Shown here piece by piece: positions 40,047 through 52,189 of a stretch of DNA of 56,149 bases (its first letter is position 1; every line of letters starts with the position of its first letter). Under the pieces are notes generated by a model. The model saw only the letters and a program-made list of their open reading frames with translations, did no database searches and was not told where the DNA came from. Made by a program: the position numbers and the translations under genes. This DNA comes from Candidatus Omnitrophota bacterium (GTDB lineage: Bacteria > Omnitrophota > Gorgyraeia > Aquiviventales > Aquiviventaceae). The stretch lies in NCBI GenBank assembly GCA_016209275.1, contig JACQWM010000004.1, positions 106,243 through 162,391 of the forward strand. Reading direction: 5' to 3'.

Positions 40047-40365
40047 ACGGGGCTGGCGCGATGCCCGGATGCGCGCGCTTGAGCTGCCCCAGGACATGGT
40101 GGTCGTCCACCTGGTGAAAGGGCGCTTGCCGCGGTCCGTCCGCGCGCTGATCGGCGGAACGCATCCAGTGCGAATGATCGGCACTCCTCGCATGGCGTTC
40201 TGGCCGCTGGCATGGGCCTGGTGCGTCGGCGCATGGATGACCGGACGCCTTCAGGCCGTGTGGGTCGATCATCCCCGCTCCTATGAACGCCTGGCACGGC
40301 TCGCACACCGCTTCGGTGTGGAGATCGTGCTGATCACCCATGATGCGTATCGCGCTGTTGTTTAA
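40018..40365 (+). CDS. Small protein of unknown function between glycosyltransferase genes
   Basis: 115 aa from ATG 40018; GTG at 40015 is also possible. A strong Shine-Dalgarno, GGAGGGAG (40001-40008), supports real translation, and overlaps of 29 and 26 bp with the neighbours keep it inside the operon. I do not recognise a family. The sequence is basic and aromatic with a moderately hydrophobic centre (FWPLAWAWCVGAWM), then an alpha/beta-looking stretch ending VEIVLITHDAYRAVV. It resembles the N-terminal half of a GT-B domain and could be a partner or separated domain of the glycosyltransferase that follows. Confidence 0.55.
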   Translation: MRPLILSLVERGWRDARMRALELPQDMVVVHLVKGRLPRSVRALIGGTHPVRMIGTPRMAFWPLAWAWCVGAWMTGRLQAVWVDHPRSYERLARLAHRFGVEIVLITHDAYRAVV

Positions 40366-41242
40366 CGGGTCTCGGGCTGACACCGTTGGCTACTACTTTC
40401 TCCGGGCCTGCCGGCAGCTGGGGATCGCGGCCGATCATTGGCAGGTCACCGAGGGGCCGCCCGCACCACCGGGATATGAGTTGTATCTTCGGGTCGACCA
40501 CGGCGATGACTACCTCGCGCCGCTTCCGGCGCACGTCCGCCCGCGGGTTTTCGTGGTCAGCGACACCCATCTGCCGCGCAGCTGGAAAAAAATCCAGCGG
40601 ATGGCGCCGCACTATGACATGATGTTCTGCGCGCAGTCCGTGGCCTCAGGAGCGCTTCCGAACGGGGCCTGGCTGCCGTTTGGGTGCGACTCGGCACTGC
40701 ACGCTCCGAGGGCCGGACCGCAGACGTGGGACCTGGCGTTTGTCGGCACGGAGGGGGCCGCACCCAGAAAATTCATTCTCCAAGCGCTCCGGGAGCGGTA
40801 TCCCAACAGCTACCTGAGCACCGCACGGCATGACGAGATGGCCTCGATCTACAGCCGGGCGCGTCTGGGGTTTAACTTTTCGATCGCGAATGAGATCAAC
40901 ATGCGCGTTTTTGAAGTCCTGGCCACGAGAACCTGTTTAGTGACGAATGCGCTCCCCGCCATTGAGCTCTCGCGCCTTGGCCTGAGGCCCGGCGAGCATT
41001 TCATGATGTATCACGGGCTTGAGCAATTGTTCCCCGCCATTGATGCGCTCTTGGCGGACCCGGCTCGGCGCGGCCAGCTGGCGAGCGCGGGCTTCGAGGC
41101 GGTAACCGCGCGCCACACCTATGTCCACCGGATTCGGCAACTCCTGGAGGAGTCAGCCCGCCGCGGGCTGATCAACTTTCCAGCTATCGAACGTCCAACA
41201 TCAATCATCAATCATCAATCGTCAATCGAAAATCCGTCATGA
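40340..41242 (+). CDS. CgeB-like glycosyltransferase
   Basis: 300 aa; ATG codons at 40340 and 40343 are both possible. It begins RIALLFNGSRADTVG, and the C-terminal half has DLAFVGTEG, YSRARLGFNFSIANEINMRVFEVLATRTCLVTN and FEAVTARHTYVHRI, the CgeB/Glyco_trans_1_2 pattern of GT-B proteins that bind nucleotide sugars. The last ~15 residues (about PTSIINHQSSIENPS) come from a tandem heptamer repeat that runs into the start of the next gene. That tail is unlikely to be functional. The start overlaps the small unknown gene by 26 bp. Confidence 0.85.
   Translation: MMRIALLFNGSRADTVGYYFLRACRQLGIAADHWQVTEGPPAPPGYELYLRVDHGDDYLAPLPAHVRPRVFVVSDTHLPRSWKKIQRMAPHYDMMFCAQSVASGALPNGAWLPFGCDSALHAPRAGPQTWDLAFVGTEGAAPRKFILQALRERYPNSYLSTARHDEMASIYSRARLGFNFSIANEINMRVFEVLATRTCLVTNALPAIELSRLGLRPGEHFMMYHGLEQLFPAIDALLADPARRGQLASAGFEAVTARHTYVHRIRQLLEESARRGLINFPAIERPTSIINHQSSIENPS
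41200..41227 (+). repeat. Tandem heptamer repeat inside a coding 3' end
   Basis: Four 7-bp units in register, ATCAATC three times and then GTCAATC. They lie in frame in the last codons of the CgeB-like gene, 12 bp before the next start codon. No inverted partner is seen here. It fits the series of short-unit repeats that appear at gene ends elsewhere in this window. Confidence 0.85.
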
Positions 41243-42405: not shown

Positions 42406-43539
42406 ATGAATCAACCAGTCTGCGATTTAGTGCTATGCAGTTGGAACCATCTCGAGGAAACGAAGCCGTGCCTTGAGAGCCTGCTCGAGGCCACGCGCGT
42501 GCCGTCCCGCCTCTTCATCGTGGATAACGGCAGCGAGCCGGATGTCCGCGCCTTTTTGGCGGCGGTTCAACCCCGCGGGGCGATCAAGGAGATTGTGGTG
42601 ATTCAGAATGAAATGAATGAAGGGTTCCCGCGAGCCATGAACCGGGGACTCAAGGCCTCCGCCGCTCCCTTTGTCGTCATTTTGAATAACGATTTGCGTT
42701 TTACCGTCGGCTGGCTACAGGAGATGATCGAGGTGGCGACAGCGAATCCGCACCTTGGCGTGATCAATCCGGCCAGCAATACCCTTGGGAACGTTCCATC
42801 GAAAGGCGTCTCGCTGCAGGCACATGCCGATCGCTTGCGCCAGAGCCGAGCCGGGCAGTACACCGAAGTCGGGATGTGCATCGGCTTTTGCATGTTGGTG
42901 AAGCGCGAGCTGTTCGAGAAAATCGGAGGCTTCAACGAGCAGGTGGAGCGGATTTTCTTCGAGGATGAAGATTTTTGCATGCGAGCCGCTCAGGCCGGCT
43001 CCCTGTGCGTTGTGGCCGAAGGGGCGTATGTCTATCATGCGGAGCATCAGACGGTGCGAAAGATGCCGGAGCGGGAAGCCCTCTTCGCCCGCAACCGGGA
43101 GTGGTGCCGGGCGCAATGGGGACGCCGATTGCGATTGGCCTGGCCGCGGTTTTCCCCTCTCGTCCCAGGCTCGCCGGAGCTGAAGCAGTGGTTGGAGGAG
43201 ATGATTGCCTGGGCGCGGCACCGCACCTACGTCTATGCCTATTGTCCCATCCCCTCGGGCGTGACGACACGCGCGATCTTTGAGTCGGTGGGGCTCATCC
43301 CGCATGCGGACATCCACTGGCGCGCGATTCCGGCCAGGCTGGCTCCTGCGGCCGCGGCGGTGTGGATTTTACGGCGGTCAAAGAAGCGATTTGACATGAT
43401 CGCCGCTCCCTCAAGGGGATGGAGCCGGCTCATGCAGGCGGCCCACTGGTGGCATCGCGCGGCCGTGATCCCAGCAGAAGACCCCGCCCAATTGAAAACC
43501 GCATGGAAAACAAAATCCCGCTCTCCGTGGTCGTTCTAG
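42406..43539 (+). CDS. Family 2 glycosyltransferase (rhamnosyltransferase-like)
   Basis: 377 aa from ATG 42406; a GTG directly before it (42403) is the other option. GT-A features: LVLCSWNHLEETKPCLESL, IVDNGS, NEGFPRAMNRGL, and VVILNNDLRF with the NDD-like metal site. IGFCMLVKRELFEKIGGFNE and FFEDEDFCMRA carry the acceptor and base region. This is the WbbL/RfbF rhamnosyltransferase-type layout, apt for a gene next to a dTDP-rhamnose 4-epimerase. The C-terminal 130 residues are a basic, Trp-rich extension. It probably works at the cytoplasmic membrane face. Confidence 0.88.
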   Translation: MNQPVCDLVLCSWNHLEETKPCLESLLEATRVPSRLFIVDNGSEPDVRAFLAAVQPRGAIKEIVVIQNEMNEGFPRAMNRGLKASAAPFVVILNNDLRFTVGWLQEMIEVATANPHLGVINPASNTLGNVPSKGVSLQAHADRLRQSRAGQYTEVGMCIGFCMLVKRELFEKIGGFNEQVERIFFEDEDFCMRAAQAGSLCVVAEGAYVYHAEHQTVRKMPEREALFARNREWCRAQWGRRLRLAWPRFSPLVPGSPELKQWLEEMIAWARHRTYVYAYCPIPSGVTTRAIFESVGLIPHADIHWRAIPARLAPAAAAVWILRRSKKRFDMIAAPSRGWSRLMQAAHWWHRAAVIPAEDPAQLKTAWKTKSRSPWSF

Positions 43540-44315
43540 CGAAAAACGAGTCCGCTCGGATCCGCGACTGCCTCCGGAGTGTCGACTGGGCCGATGAGGT
43601 CTTGGTGGTCGATGATCACAGCACGGATGACACCGCGCGGACCGCGGAGGCGATGGGCGCGCGCGTCGTGCGCCGGGCAATGGACATCGAAGGCCGGCAC
43701 CGCAACTGGGCCCATGCCCAAGCCAAGCATGAGTGGATTTTCAGCGTGGATGCGGATGAGCGCGTGACACCCGAGCTGGCCCAGGAGATCATCGCGCTCT
43801 TCCGCTCTACACCGGCGCATGAGCTCTATGCGATTCCTCGCCGCAATTATCTCGGAACCTTCTGGATCCGCCACGGCGGCTGGTATCCCAGCCCGCAACT
43901 GAAGCTCTTCAAGAAATCGGTGTTTCGGTGGGAGGAAACCACGGTGCATCCCCGGGCGTTCTCGGATCGTCCAGCCGGGCAGCTGACCCAGGATCTGATC
44001 CACTACTCCTACCGCGACCGAGGCGATTTTTTGCGCAAGCTCGATCGGCAAACCACGCTCGAAGCCGAAAAATGGGCGGCCGATGGCCGGCGCATGAGCC
44101 TTGGAAAAGCGCTCTGGAGAGCCATCGATCGCGTGGCGCGCTCCTACGTGTTGAAGCGAGGCTATCGGGATGGGGCGGTGGGCTGGTTTGTGGCCAGGAT
44201 GGCGGGACGCTACCAATGGGTCAGCTACTGGAAGTACGTCCGGATGACGTCTGATGTGCGCGCTGCCGCAGCAGCGCGGCTGAAAGTGCCACACTCATCC
44301 GCGGCCGCACGATGA
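43503..44315 (+). CDS. WaaE/KdtX-like family 2 glycosyltransferase
   Basis: 270 aa from ATG 43503 (MENKIPLSVVVLAKNE), 37 bp inside the previous gene. AKNESARIRDCLRS, VVDDHSTDDT and FSVDADERVTPELAQEI are the markers of the WaaE/HyaD lipopolysaccharide beta-glucosyltransferase group. HGGWYPSPQLKLFKK and the tail SYVLKRGYRDG ... complete the family layout. It would add a glucose or heptose-linked sugar on the core. The same module occurs twice more, in part and whole, in the fused gene that follows with ATGA. Confidence 0.9.
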   Translation: MENKIPLSVVVLAKNESARIRDCLRSVDWADEVLVVDDHSTDDTARTAEAMGARVVRRAMDIEGRHRNWAHAQAKHEWIFSVDADERVTPELAQEIIALFRSTPAHELYAIPRRNYLGTFWIRHGGWYPSPQLKLFKKSVFRWEETTVHPRAFSDRPAGQLTQDLIHYSYRDRGDFLRKLDRQTTLEAEKWAADGRRMSLGKALWRAIDRVARSYVLKRGYRDGAVGWFVARMAGRYQWVSYWKYVRMTSDVRAAAAARLKVPHSSAAAR

Positions 44316-46222
44316 AGACAGCGAATCAGCAAGATGAGGGCAAGCACGATCAGGGCGAGCCGTTCCATCAGCAGGACGGTATTCTCCCATACCTGTCGGT
44401 CGTGATTCCTGTGTTCAACGGGCAGCGGTATCTGCCCGCGACCCTAGCACACCTCGTCGAGTTCTTAAGCCCGCGCGGCGCGTTTGAAATCGTGGTGGTT
44501 GACGACGGCAGCGCGGATCAGACGGCGGAGCTGGCCCAGGCCTGCAGCGCGCGCGATTCGCGCATACGCCTGGTCCGTCTGGCGGAGAACCGAGGCAAGG
44601 GCGCTGCGGTCCGTGAGGGTATGCGCCGGGCCCGAGGCGCCTTCAGAATCTTCTGCGATGCGGACTTGCCCATCAGCGTTGAGACGCTTGAGCGGCCGCT
44701 GGCATTGCTGCGCAACGGCTGCGACATCGCCATCGCCTCCCGGGCGCTGCGTGAATCCGCCGTGGCCGTGCCGCCGACGCTGCTGCGGCAGGTCGTTAGC
44801 CCCTGCTTTAACCGGCTCATCCGCGCGCTCTTTCGCCTGCCGTATCAGGATACCCAATGCGGGCTGAAAGGATTTACCCAGCAGGCGGCCGAAGATCTCT
44901 TTGCCCAGGCAGGGATCGACGGGTTTGCGTTCGATGTCGAGCTGCTGGTGCTGGCCCGCCTGCTCGGCTATCGCGTGGGCGAGTTCCCGGTTCGCGTCGA
45001 AAATACCGCCGAGAGCAGTGTCAGCGTCGTGGGCCACACCGGCGCGATCGGCCGCGATGTCTGGCGCATTCTCCGCAACCTCCGCTCAGGACGCTATCGC
45101 GCTCCGGGGGCGGATCAACCCTCTCGGAGCCTGGCGGAGCGCATCGAGCGCTCGATCGCGGAAGCTCGCGGCGAGGCGCAGCACCCCAGCGGCCCTTCGC
45201 GGTCACCTACCTGCATCGCCGTGGTCAGGCGGCTGGTGGCGCGTCCGCTTCGGATGTTTGCGGCCTCCTATGTCAGCCGCCGGGGCAGCCAGGAGCTGGA
45301 CCGCCTGATGAACGCCGGTGTTGTGGCATGGGGCGAGTTTTTGAAGGGTGCCGCGTTCTGGGAGCTGACGATTCGATCTTCACTGCCGCAGGCGGCTAAG
45401 CGCTGGGAGCTAGAAGCTCCTGAGAGCGTCCCCCAGCATTCAGCTCCTAGCTCTCAGCCACGAGAAACATTGGCCGTCGTGATCCTCACGAAGAATGAGG
45501 AAGCGCGGATCGCCCGCGCCCTGGCCAGCGTGGCCTGGGCCGATGAAGTGATCGTGGTCGATGGAGGAAGCACCGACCGGACGGTTGAGATCTGCCGCCG
45601 CTTCGGGGCTGCCGTCATCGTTCATGCGTTTGACGGAAGTTTCGCGATGGATCGGAATGTCGGCAGCGAGCGCGCGGCATCCGACTGGGTGCTGCAGATG
45701 GATGCGGATGACGTCGTCACACCGGGTTTCCGCCACGCCATGGAGCAGATCCTCCGCGAGGGGACGCCGCATGCCGGGCTGAAGTTTTATCGCCGCAGCG
45801 TGCTGCTGGGGCGCGTGATGCGCTTCGGCGGCTGGCATTACATGGTGCCGAACTTAGCGCGCCGCACGCGCGTGCGCTATGAGGGATTAGTCCACGAGCG
45901 ATCCGTCATCGACGGCACCGTGGGCGAGCTGCCCGCGGATATCGAGCACCATCCGTGCGAGGATCTGATGACGTTTGCGGCGCGGCAGCACCGGTATACC
46001 ACGCTGCAGGCGGAGGAATGGTTCGCGGCTGAAGGGGCCGGCGCTGCGCTGGACATCCGCCGGCGATTGTGGAGGCGGCCGTGGAAAATCTTCTGGAAGA
46101 GCTACGTGAAAAAGCAGGGATACCGGGAAGGGTGGCACGGGCTGGTGTTCGCCGAGCTCTTCGCCGGGGTCGAGTTTTTGAAGTGGGCGAAGTGCTGGGA
46201 GCTGGCTCGACGGTCGCGATGA
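44312..46222 (+). CDS. Fusion of two family 2 glycosyltransferases (Alg5-like + WaaE-like)
   Basis: 636 aa. Residues ~28-270 form a dolichyl-phosphate glucosyltransferase-like GT2 (VIPVFNGQRY, DDGSADQT, NRGKGAAVREGM, FCDADLP, DTQCGLKGF). Residues ~300-357 do not belong to it: RRLVARPLRMF..SYVSRRG ... EFLKGAAFWEL closely parallels the C-terminal tail of the second domain (RRLWRRPWKIF..SYVKKQG ... EFLKWAKCWEL). A short linker (~365-385), encoded by an inverted repeat of intergenic type, leads into a WaaE-like GT2 (VVILTKNEEARIA, VVDGGSTDRT, MDADDVVTP). It looks like genes merged through deletion and loss of stops. Confidence 0.9.
   Translation: MKTANQQDEGKHDQGEPFHQQDGILPYLSVVIPVFNGQRYLPATLAHLVEFLSPRGAFEIVVVDDGSADQTAELAQACSARDSRIRLVRLAENRGKGAAVREGMRRARGAFRIFCDADLPISVETLERPLALLRNGCDIAIASRALRESAVAVPPTLLRQVVSPCFNRLIRALFRLPYQDTQCGLKGFTQQAAEDLFAQAGIDGFAFDVELLVLARLLGYRVGEFPVRVENTAESSVSVVGHTGAIGRDVWRILRNLRSGRYRAPGADQPSRSLAERIERSIAEARGEAQHPSGPSRSPTCIAVVRRLVARPLRMFAASYVSRRGSQELDRLMNAGVVAWGEFLKGAAFWELTIRSSLPQAAKRWELEAPESVPQHSAPSSQPRETLAVVILTKNEEARIARALASVAWADEVIVVDGGSTDRTVEICRRFGAAVIVHAFDGSFAMDRNVGSERAASDWVLQMDADDVVTPGFRHAMEQILREGTPHAGLKFYRRSVLLGRVMRFGGWHYMVPNLARRTRVRYEGLVHERSVIDGTVGELPADIEHHPCEDLMTFAARQHRYTTLQAEEWFAAEGAGAALDIRRRLWRRPWKIFWKSYVKKQGYREGWHGLVFAELFAGVEFLKWAKCWELARRSR
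45402..45458. repeat. Coding inverted repeat made of GCT-leading heptamers
   Basis: Left arm 45402-45418 and right arm 45442-45458 agree as reverse complements at 15 of 17 positions. Each arm is two 7-bp units plus a partial one (GCTGGGA/GCTAGAA; AGCTCCT/AGCTCTC). It lies in frame at the junction of the two glycosyltransferase parts of the fused gene. It has the same form as the intergenic heptamer hairpins elsewhere in the window. Confidence 0.8.
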
Positions 46223-46941: not shown

Positions 46942-48114
46942 GTGTCGACCTCCGCGCCGCGCATGCTTGTCAGTTACACCACAGCAGGAGCCGGGCATCG
47001 CCGAGCCGCCGAAGCGATGGCGCAGGCCTTAGCGCGTTTAATACCGGACGCCGACATTGTCTGCCACGACGCGTTAAAGTGCACCCCGCTGTGGTGGCGC
47101 TGGAGCTATCCGCGCACGTACTATTATTTAGTGCGAGCGACAGCCTGGCTGTGGGCGCTCGCGTTTCGTTGCCTGGATCACCCCATCGGCTATGCGATCT
47201 GGCAGCCCATCAGGCGACAGGGGAATCTCATCATGGCCTGGCGGTGGCTGCGAGAGCTTCAGCAGCATCCGCCGCAGCTCATCGTCGTGACGCATTTTTT
47301 CCCCTGCGATGTCATCAGCACGGCAAAGCGCGCCGGGTGGCTGCGCGCTCCGCTCGTCGTGGTGGTCACGGATTTCCACCCCCACGCGTTTTGGCTCTCC
47401 CGCGAGGCCGAGGCCTACATCTGCTCAACCGAGCAGGGGGCGCGCACGCTGGTGGCTCGCGGCATTCCGGCCGACCGGATCCATGTGCTCGGGATTCCCA
47501 TTGATCGCCGCTTCGCCGAGATCCGCGACCGCGAGGCGATCCGGCGGCAGGTGGGGCTCTCCGGCGGCCGGCGCACGATCCTCATCACGAGCGGGGGAGC
47601 TACCGTCGGGCCGTTTGAGGCGGTCGTCCGCGCGCTCACGGCGCTTGAGCGCTGCTGGCCGGGCCGCATTCAGCTGCTCGTCGTCTGCGGCGAAAACACG
47701 AAAACGGCAGCGCGGCTGCGCGCCGCCGCGCGCCAAACATCCATGCCGGTGAAAGTCTTCGAATTTGTGGAGACGATGCCTGAGCTGATGGCGGCCAGCG
47801 ACCTGATCGTCGCGAAGGCCGGCGGGCTGACCGTGACCGAAGCGATGGCCGCAGGCCTGCCGATGCTCATGTATCATGTCATTCCAGGTCAGGAGCAAGC
47901 GAATGCCCGCGCGCTCATCAACGCCGGAGCCGCCGTGCTCATCCGCGATCCGAAGCGCGTGGCGGAGACGGTTCGCCGGCTGTGCGAGGACCCCGGTCGG
48001 ATGGCCGCGCTGCGCCAGGCGGCGCAGCGGCTGAGCCACCCGCATGCGGCCGATGACATCGTCGAGCAGGTGATCAAACCCTTGTTACAATCACCAATGA
48101 CCAAATTCCAATGA
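46942..48114 (+). CDS. MGDG-synthase/MurG-like glycosyltransferase (GT28)
   Basis: 390 aa from GTG 46942; ATG 46963 (MLVSYTTAGAGHRRAAEAM) is an equally good start. The N-domain begins SYTTAGAGHRRAA, the glycine-rich loop of processive diacylglycerol glucosyltransferases and monogalactosyldiacylglycerol synthases. VTDFHPHAFW, ITSGGATVGPFEAVV and KAGGLTVTEAMAAGLPMLMYHVIPGQEQANA are the other landmarks. It probably glycosylates a lipid at the inner membrane. Its last seven codons lie in a heptamer repeat array, and the stop codon is part of that repeat. Confidence 0.88.
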   Translation: MSTSAPRMLVSYTTAGAGHRRAAEAMAQALARLIPDADIVCHDALKCTPLWWRWSYPRTYYYLVRATAWLWALAFRCLDHPIGYAIWQPIRRQGNLIMAWRWLRELQQHPPQLIVVTHFFPCDVISTAKRAGWLRAPLVVVVTDFHPHAFWLSREAEAYICSTEQGARTLVARGIPADRIHVLGIPIDRRFAEIRDREAIRRQVGLSGGRRTILITSGGATVGPFEAVVRALTALERCWPGRIQLLVVCGENTKTAARLRAAARQTSMPVKVFEFVETMPELMAASDLIVAKAGGLTVTEAMAAGLPMLMYHVIPGQEQANARALINAGAAVLIRDPKRVAETVRRLCEDPGRMAALRQAAQRLSHPHAADDIVEQVIKPLLQSPMTKFQ

Positions 48115-48229
48115 CCAAACAATCACCAATGACCGAATCACCAATGACCAAACAGACAGACTATTTGGTTATTCGGTCATTGGAACATTGGTTATTGTTT
48201 GGTTATTGGTGCTTGGTTATTGGTCATTG
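48088..48229. repeat. Large inverted heptamer array between the glycan locus and udg
   Basis: The left half (about 48089-48152) is built of CAATCAC, CAATGAC and variants, mostly in 7-bp steps. The right half (about 48163-48229) is built of GGTTATT and GGTCATT units, the reverse-complement family. Together they could form an imperfect hairpin of over 60 bp per arm. The array covers the 3' end of the GT28 gene and nearly all of the 124-bp gap before the uracil-DNA glycosylase gene. I see no promoter inside it and nothing else in the gap. Confidence 0.88.
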
Positions 48230-50898: not shown

Positions 50899-50952
50899 AG
50901 CAAATAGCAAATAGCACATAGCAGATAGCGAACGGCCTTTTCTATCTGCTAT
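50899..50952. repeat. AGCAAAT-type heptamer array with inverted arm between convergent genes
   Basis: Four tandem 7-bp units (AGCAAAT twice, AGCACAT, AGCAGAT) occupy 50899-50926. The segment 50918-50928 is an exact 11-bp reverse complement of 50942-50952. It lies between the convergent priA and TPR genes, so the hairpin could help end both transcripts, but no clear T-run follows on either side. The remaining few bases of the gap hold nothing else visible. Confidence 0.85.
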
Positions 50953-50961
50953 ATGCTGGAG

Positions 50962-51617: not shown

Positions 51618-52100
51618 ATGCCGGTGCGCCCGTTATGCCTTGAGCCGCAACCGGTGTTGCGCGCCGCCGCCTGCCGCGTGAGGGCCTTCACCGATGATGT
51701 GCGGCGTCTCGTTGACGATTTGATTGAGACGATGTACGCTAATGATGGCATTGGGCTGGCCGCTCCGCAAATCGGACGCGACGCGCAAGTCTTCGTGGCG
51801 AATCCCTCCCGCCATCCGGGCCAGGAGCTCGTGATGGTGAATCCCGCGCTCGAGTGGTCTGCCGGGCGCGCGGGGATTGTGGAAGGGTGCCTCAGCGTGC
51901 CCGATGTGTGGGCCAAAATCCGGCGGGCCGCGAGGGTTCGAATGCACGGATGCGATGCGGCCGGTGCGGCATACACGGTGACCGCCGAGGGGCTCTTGGC
52001 GATTGTCTTGCAGCACGAATTTGATCATTTGCAGGGCCGGCTCTTTATTGATCGCCTGCCGTGGTGGCGCCGTTTAACGACGAGAAGACCGACGAGGTGA
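51618..52100 (+). CDS. def: Peptide deformylase
   Basis: 160 aa, normal length. The three motifs are intact: GIGLAAPQIG (43-52), EGCLSVPDV with the metal-binding Cys, and QHEFDHLQG with HExxH. It removes the formyl group from nascent N-terminal methionine, so it pairs functionally with the Fmt gene downstream. The final codons are Arg-rich (RRLTTRRPTR). Its TGA stop lies inside the first unit of an octamer repeat. The promoter above is the likeliest start of this transcription unit. Confidence 0.96.
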   Translation: MPVRPLCLEPQPVLRAAACRVRAFTDDVRRLVDDLIETMYANDGIGLAAPQIGRDAQVFVANPSRHPGQELVMVNPALEWSAGRAGIVEGCLSVPDVWAKIRRAARVRMHGCDAAGAAYTVTAEGLLAIVLQHEFDHLQGRLFIDRLPWWRRLTTRRPTR

Positions 52101-52189
52101 TTGAGTGATTGAGGGATTAAGTGATTACGAGAGATCGCTCAGGGTTTCATATCTTTGAATCACCCAATCACCCAATCACTTAATCACAC
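52099..52189. repeat. Octamer array with inverted copy between def and fmt
   Basis: Left array 52099-52130: GATTGAGT, GATTGAGG, GATTAAGT, GATTACGA. Right array 52158-52189: AATCACCC twice, AATCACTT, AATCACAC, the reverse-complement family. The two arms could pair over about 30 bp with a ~27-nt loop. It overlaps the def stop codon and ends 7 bp before the fmt start, filling essentially the whole gap. Unit size is 8 rather than 7. Confidence 0.88.

Follow-up and report, generated by a model that had tools for sequence, protein, structure and literature searches.

In-frame heptamer palindromes in a fusion-prone glycosyltransferase locus of Omnitrophota, read as a repeat invasion comparable to the Rickettsia palindromic elements

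The window, which is the whole 56,149-nt stretch of an Omnitrophota contig that was analysed, contains two adjoining glycosyltransferase genes on the forward strand. The first gene (E0, 43503-44315) is a stand-alone WaaE-like GT2 gene with a match to Pfam PF00535 and orthologues in relatives. The second gene (44312-46222) begins within the first, overlapping the E0 stop (44315), and is an open reading frame of 636 aa in which two GT2 domains are joined through a tail and a linker. An Alg5-like domain followed by a WaaE-like domain had been proposed for this frame, which is borne out by two matches to PF00535 and one to PF13704. The genome (G000) has a size of 1.8 Mb. The relatives compared belong to the same family and to other genera than that of the window organism. 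The order of the locus in the family is GT9 - GT4 - epimerase - GT2 - E0 - variable fusion - deacetylase - MGDG-synthase-like, and E0 orthologues (62-71% identity) are located upstream of the fusion locus in most relatives.

The N-terminal GT2 domain of the fused gene (residues 25-265, 44384-45106, forward strand) has a DxD-type motif and matches the Alg5/DPM-like (polyprenyl-phosphate type) class in sequence and fold. Its best PF00535 stretch covers residues 29-197, and its PDB matches include DPM synthase (5mlz), GtrB (5eke/5ekp) and ArnC (9bhc). In the AlphaFold model of the full protein this domain has mostly high pLDDT and the tail region has a pLDDT of about 40; the fold matches are interpreted for the N-terminal domain alone, the rest of the model being of low use. 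No transmembrane segment was identified in the protein, unlike in the DPM synthase/ArnC/GtrB comparison set. The domain may make a polyprenyl-phosphate sugar or a related lipid-linked sugar.

The C-terminal part (E2, residues 386-636, 45467-46219, forward strand) is a WaaE-like GT2 domain that is complete and has a tail of its own. It contains the PF13704 match (residues 394-469) and the second PF00535 stretch, has a GT2 fold with a C-terminal helical tail and has orthologues throughout the family at 51-70% identity. The tail (residues 557-635) scores 109.5 bits with a profile of 72 WaaE-like tails, 70 from relatives and two from the E0 and E2 of the window itself. No curated WaaE model matched E2, and "WaaE-like" is a label from the initial sequence reading. 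The second GT2 domain may extend an acceptor, and the tails may anchor both GT2 domains at the membrane.

The segment between the two domains contains an orphan tail (residues 296-358, 45197-45385, forward strand). The earlier note had described this segment as a repeat of the C-terminal tail of WaaE-like proteins, and the comparison agrees. The isolated tail scores 21.8 bits with the profile of 72 tails, versus 14.1 bits for the best of 2000 shuffles, and its DNA is 71% identical to that of the E2 tail over 68 nt (45300-45367 vs 46137-46204). The tail is modelled as two helices resembling the E2 tail; this prediction is weak because the pLDDT is about 40. With clade-specific tail profiles the scores are 34.4 bits for E1 (a profile built from three sequences), 23.7 for E2, 21.2 for E3 and 1.9 for E0. 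The earlier note had suggested aligning the three WaaE-like tails; that of the 43503-44315 gene comes from the least similar clade, and a tail shared with E0 was rejected on this score. A compensated frameshift was also considered for the odd middle of the tail and was rejected, as the DNA alignment with E1 leaves a net difference of one codon only.

The variable part of the locus includes E2 in all loci compared, but its partners vary. E1 is the partner in G019 and G021, the latter also with a GT2 domain and E1 in front. A further WaaE-like domain, E3, is found behind E2 in six relatives (G018, G020, G013, G014, G002 and G024), and a DPM-like domain stands in front in five (G018 with 52% identity, G017, G013, G020 and G007). 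The partner domain of G002 resembles a sulfotransferase, as judged by eye. E2 is alone or in a separate ORF in G016, G001, G011 and G006; E1 is also separate in G016, and a DPM1-type gene and E2 are overlapping ORFs in G006. The parts thus occur both fused and separate among the relatives, and fusions at this locus are frequent.

The nearest relatives of the window's E2 suggest where the orphan tail came from. In a whole-domain tree the E2 domains of G019 and G021 are sister to that of the window (SH-aLRT 99); E1 is represented by three domains, which group in a single clade (SH-aLRT 98). In both genomes E1 stands directly before E2 in a single open frame of 548 and 928 aa (stop-to-stop frames, with the starts of long ones not proven). 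A full E1 is absent from the window genome in a full-length search (genome 96.7% complete), where E0 and E2 are the sole strong WaaE-like matches. The tail has an affinity to E1, E1-E2 frames exist in G019 and G021 and no other strong WaaE-like match is present; most simply, then, the E1 core of an E1-E2 protein was lost and its place is now taken by a DPM-like domain. These comparisons support the orphan tail as a relic of a WaaE-like domain minus its catalytic part, in line with the loss that had been suggested from the sequence alone, and E1 and E2 were probably one protein already before that loss. The closest DPM domain, in G018, is joined to E2 with no tail between, which counts against this order of events.

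It is quite unlikely that the orphan tail arose by partial duplication of the E2 tail in the same protein, or was converted by it, and is not a relic of E1. The two tails have the CGAGTTTTTGAAG run in common in addition to the 71% DNA identity, and the end of the orphan tail is nearest in DNA to the own E2 tail (63/88 identical), which counts against an E1 origin. The single-sequence protein scores separate E1 (93) from E2 (85) by a narrow gap. However, the E1 clade profile is 10 bits above that of E2 for the orphan tail, and in the sister lineages E1 occupies exactly the position of the orphan tail. Another explanation, unlikely in our judgement, makes the tail a free-standing module of membrane or partner-binding type which was kept or added for a function of its own in several GT proteins and is not mere debris. 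Core-less extra tails do follow related E domains at the C-terminus in G007 and G026, and half an E domain lies behind E2 in G022. However, the conserved G-x-x-(D/E)-G motif is no longer present in the window's tail, and decay of a fused domain is also a possible reading of each core-less tail. With the tail read as a relic, the tails of G007 and G026 and the half domain of G022 suggest that core loss with tail survival was not a single event.

The linker between the orphan tail and E2 is encoded by an in-frame heptamer palindrome of 66 nt, or 22 codons (45394-45459, forward strand), whose outer bounds were set by eye from the GGCT...AGCC ends. An inverted repeat of heptamers had been noted here, and the arms (45402-45418 and 45442-45458) are indeed 88% complementary over 17 nt. 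The folding z-score of the linker is -2.2, and it is more stable than 195 of 200 shuffles. The pattern AGCTnnnAGCT occurs five times in the window versus 0.65 expected, and two of these occurrences are within the linker. The peptides encoded by two-armed copies are alike, for instance RWELEAP...HSAPSSQP in this linker and RSWKLEAGS...QLPAPSSQLP in Ddl. The peptides encoded by the element include APSSQPRETLAV in the GT fusion and LAPSSQLPAK in LysS.

The element belongs to an AGCTYYY/AGCTRRR family, which is both palindromic and repeated in the genome. The pattern AGCTCNNAGCTCNNAGC has 13 occurrences in the genome and its reversed control has none; looser patterns give about 15 sites in the 1.8 Mb, a list that comes from pattern searches and may be incomplete. 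In-frame copies are found in Ddl (D-Ala-D-Ala ligase), YggS, PheT, MiaB and LysS (NCBIfam ids), in an intein and in the GT fusion. Other sites precede metK and the conserved portions of GlyS and PurL, or are located between or near other ORFs. One site (C27:17157, L134) is probably a chance match, and the nature of the ORFs that contain two others (L129 and L131) is uncertain. Of 285 genomes drawn from the phylum, 21 have the array in its AGCT version.

Several of these sites have features of their own. The intein is part of a protein of at least 1666 aa with a response-regulator domain and carries a two-armed AGCT element (L132:1497-1553, G000 C14); a nested GC-rich hairpin is common to this element and the PheT copy. 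At L129, around 2600-2662, a stretch coding for LRQGFGGQAS lies beside a short AGCT array and looks like a different repeat family. Other heptamers also occur in the window. In the GT gene at 40340-41242, the C-terminus SIINHQSSIENPS is encoded in frame by four CATCAAT heptamers (41199-41227). A 141-bp intergenic palindrome (48088-48229), flanked by the MGDG-synthase-like gene and the following ORF, consists of CAATGAC-type heptamers with 55-nt arms that are 80% complementary, a second heptamer family. More palindromes of tandem 7- or 8-mers lie between ORFs at 52097-52187 and 50899-50957.

Copies in conserved genes can be compared with orthologues that lack them. The Ddl insert is absent in all 19 family relatives aligned, and none of the 19 has a period-7 peak at that loop. 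In LysS the lag-7 self-match has its gene-wide maximum at one loop, just before (I/V)DE.F.EALEYGMPP, in G000 and in most relatives (loci L182-L199); five (L188, L191, L194, L197 and L198) show no clear insert or peak. MiaB (L162-L176) follows the same pattern, with a period-7 insert after EIQEKRQ that several relatives lack. Since a lag of seven is not a codon multiple, codon structure does not yield this signal. The loop inserts differ by genus (GSRLKAQG...LQPSAFSLQ, SEIRNQ...TSDVRHLTSE, SVQR...LNAER, QLPAPSSQ). PDB alignments place the LysS insert in a variable loop and the MiaB insert in a variable stretch; those of Ddl and PheT do not resolve the insert position. A second MiaB loop (L162-L176), just before (V/I)R(V/I/L)RFTTSHPFD, is highly variable and has long inserts in some genera. 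The loop repeats may result from repeated insertions, or from one old insertion followed by sequence turnover.

The heptamer build may help to explain how such DNA is tolerated. Whichever of the three frames is read, a tandem 7-mer encodes one and the same peptide of seven residues, which for AGCTCCC is SSQLPAP. A tandem heptamer would therefore do little harm in any frame if it is stop-free, and the only further need is an element length that is a multiple of three, as the GT-fusion element has with its 66 nt by the chosen bounds. Units ending in T, such as AGCTCCT, contain TAG in one phase, and the coding copies use the other frames. On this arithmetic, frame tolerance may be a route of spread. 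We hold it possible, just short of probable, that mobile or self-renewing heptamer palindromes across the family repeatedly occupy the same LysS and MiaB surface loops with genome-specific sequence, and that loops and linkers are hot spots of coding-repeat turnover which shape the fusions.

The intragenic copies bear directly on the origin of the linker. The earlier note had supposed three genes, with stop codons lost and the gap between two of them left as coding sequence. Heptamer repeats sit in frame inside unrelated genes, which contradicts the view that such a repeat is the mark of a former gap, and an origin of the linker from a gap opened by stop loss is not supported; intergenic DNA need not be the source of a linker that a repeat encodes. 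It is very improbable that three separate genes lost the stops between a degraded E1 gene and E2 and kept an intergenic heptamer repeat as linker. Such an origin would agree with other heptamer palindromes of the window that are intergenic (48088-48229), with some AGCT elements upstream of metK or beside a Y1-transposase-like gene, and with G016, where E1 and E2 are separate. However, in the nearest E2 relatives, G019 and G021, E1 and E2 already share a frame, and each genome has its own linker: that of G021 has tandem TTCAGCG heptamers, that of G019 has none, and neither contains the AGCT repeat. The hairpin is a copy of a genome-wide family that is also intragenic. Relatives with the parts as separate genes do exist (G016 and, as overlapping ORFs, G006), but none was seen among the family loci compared with separate parts and a heptamer repeat between them. 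Since the linkers are variable, the insertion in the GT fusion is less clean than that in Ddl.

The preferred reading, which we consider likely as a whole, is a GT2 fusion from a fusion-prone locus with an E1-tail relic and a later in-frame AGCT insertion. The ancestor would have been a WaaE-like E1-E2 tandem sharing one frame, a state that G019 and G021 retain. An Alg5/DPM-like domain may have replaced the E1 catalytic core, or may have come to stand before E1, whose core was deleted afterwards. What remained between the domains would be the E1 tail, probably a pair of amphipathic helices with the role of holding such enzymes at the membrane, and the 66-nt linker hairpin would be a separate, later in-frame insertion of an AGCTYYY/AGCTRRR element. 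The protein would then be a bifunctional or scaffolded GT2 fusion of a polysaccharide or glycolipid locus. On this reading the glycosyltransferase fusions document a stepwise domain loss in which a membrane-type tail outlasts the catalytic core.

The fusion differs from its known structural counterparts. The N-terminal domain resembles DPM synthase, ArnC and GtrB in its GT2 fold and sequence; here it is followed by a tail of WaaE-like type and by another GT2 domain.

The repeats resemble three kinds of known elements in part. In REP/RAYT systems, REPs are found inside genes in several species and are associated with RAYT transposases (PMC3733652). The AGCT elements are likewise short palindromes, some of them intragenic, and one lies beside a Y1-transposase-like gene (L136). 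They differ in being heptamer-built, and the GTAG foot is not present in the AGCT element sequences examined by eye. The Y1-transposase-like ORF (L136:2504-2646, G000 C42) is weak and appears to lack the usual histidine motif; immediately upstream of it lie three GTGCCWGGCAC palindromes together with one AGCT element. Mobilisation by RAYT was rejected as a general explanation, since the element adjoins one of the three Y1_Tnp genes of the genome and the other two have no AGCT element nearby. Heptamer arrays are known from Beggiatoaceae, where the unit is for example TAACTGA, and from cyanobacteria, and the repeating peptide that such arrays would encode has been mentioned (PMC4679880). The Beggiatoaceae arrays are also tandem 7-mers scattered in the genome, but most of them are direct repeats between genes whose translation contains stops, whereas the AGCT elements are palindromic, stop-free in frame and intragenic.

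The Rickettsia palindromic elements are palindromes of about 150 bp in conserved families that lie in frame inside unrelated metabolic genes (Ogata et al. 2000, reviewed in PMC10969869). The AGCT elements too form a family of palindromes repeated in the genome and sit in frame in metabolic genes that are unrelated to one another. However, their arms are tandem heptamers (AGCTYYY/AGCTRRR) with about 20-70 nt in total, their units differ by genus, and the same protein loops are reused. Judged by size and build alone, they do not have the conserved family sequence of about 150 bp that defines the Rickettsia elements proper. No description of heptamer-built palindromes reused at the same protein loops in several genera was found in the literature searched, with most subscription papers outside its coverage. 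We read the present case as an in-frame repeat invasion comparable to that in Rickettsia, in a fusion-prone glycosyltransferase locus.

Rickettsia and a small number of REP-rich genomes account for most descriptions of in-frame palindromes in essential genes. The Omnitrophota, an unrelated phylum, show the same outcome as the Rickettsia palindromes with heptamer-built elements, at the same LysS and MiaB loops in many genera. This raises the question of where in a protein an insertion of coding DNA is accepted and by what route such DNA spreads.
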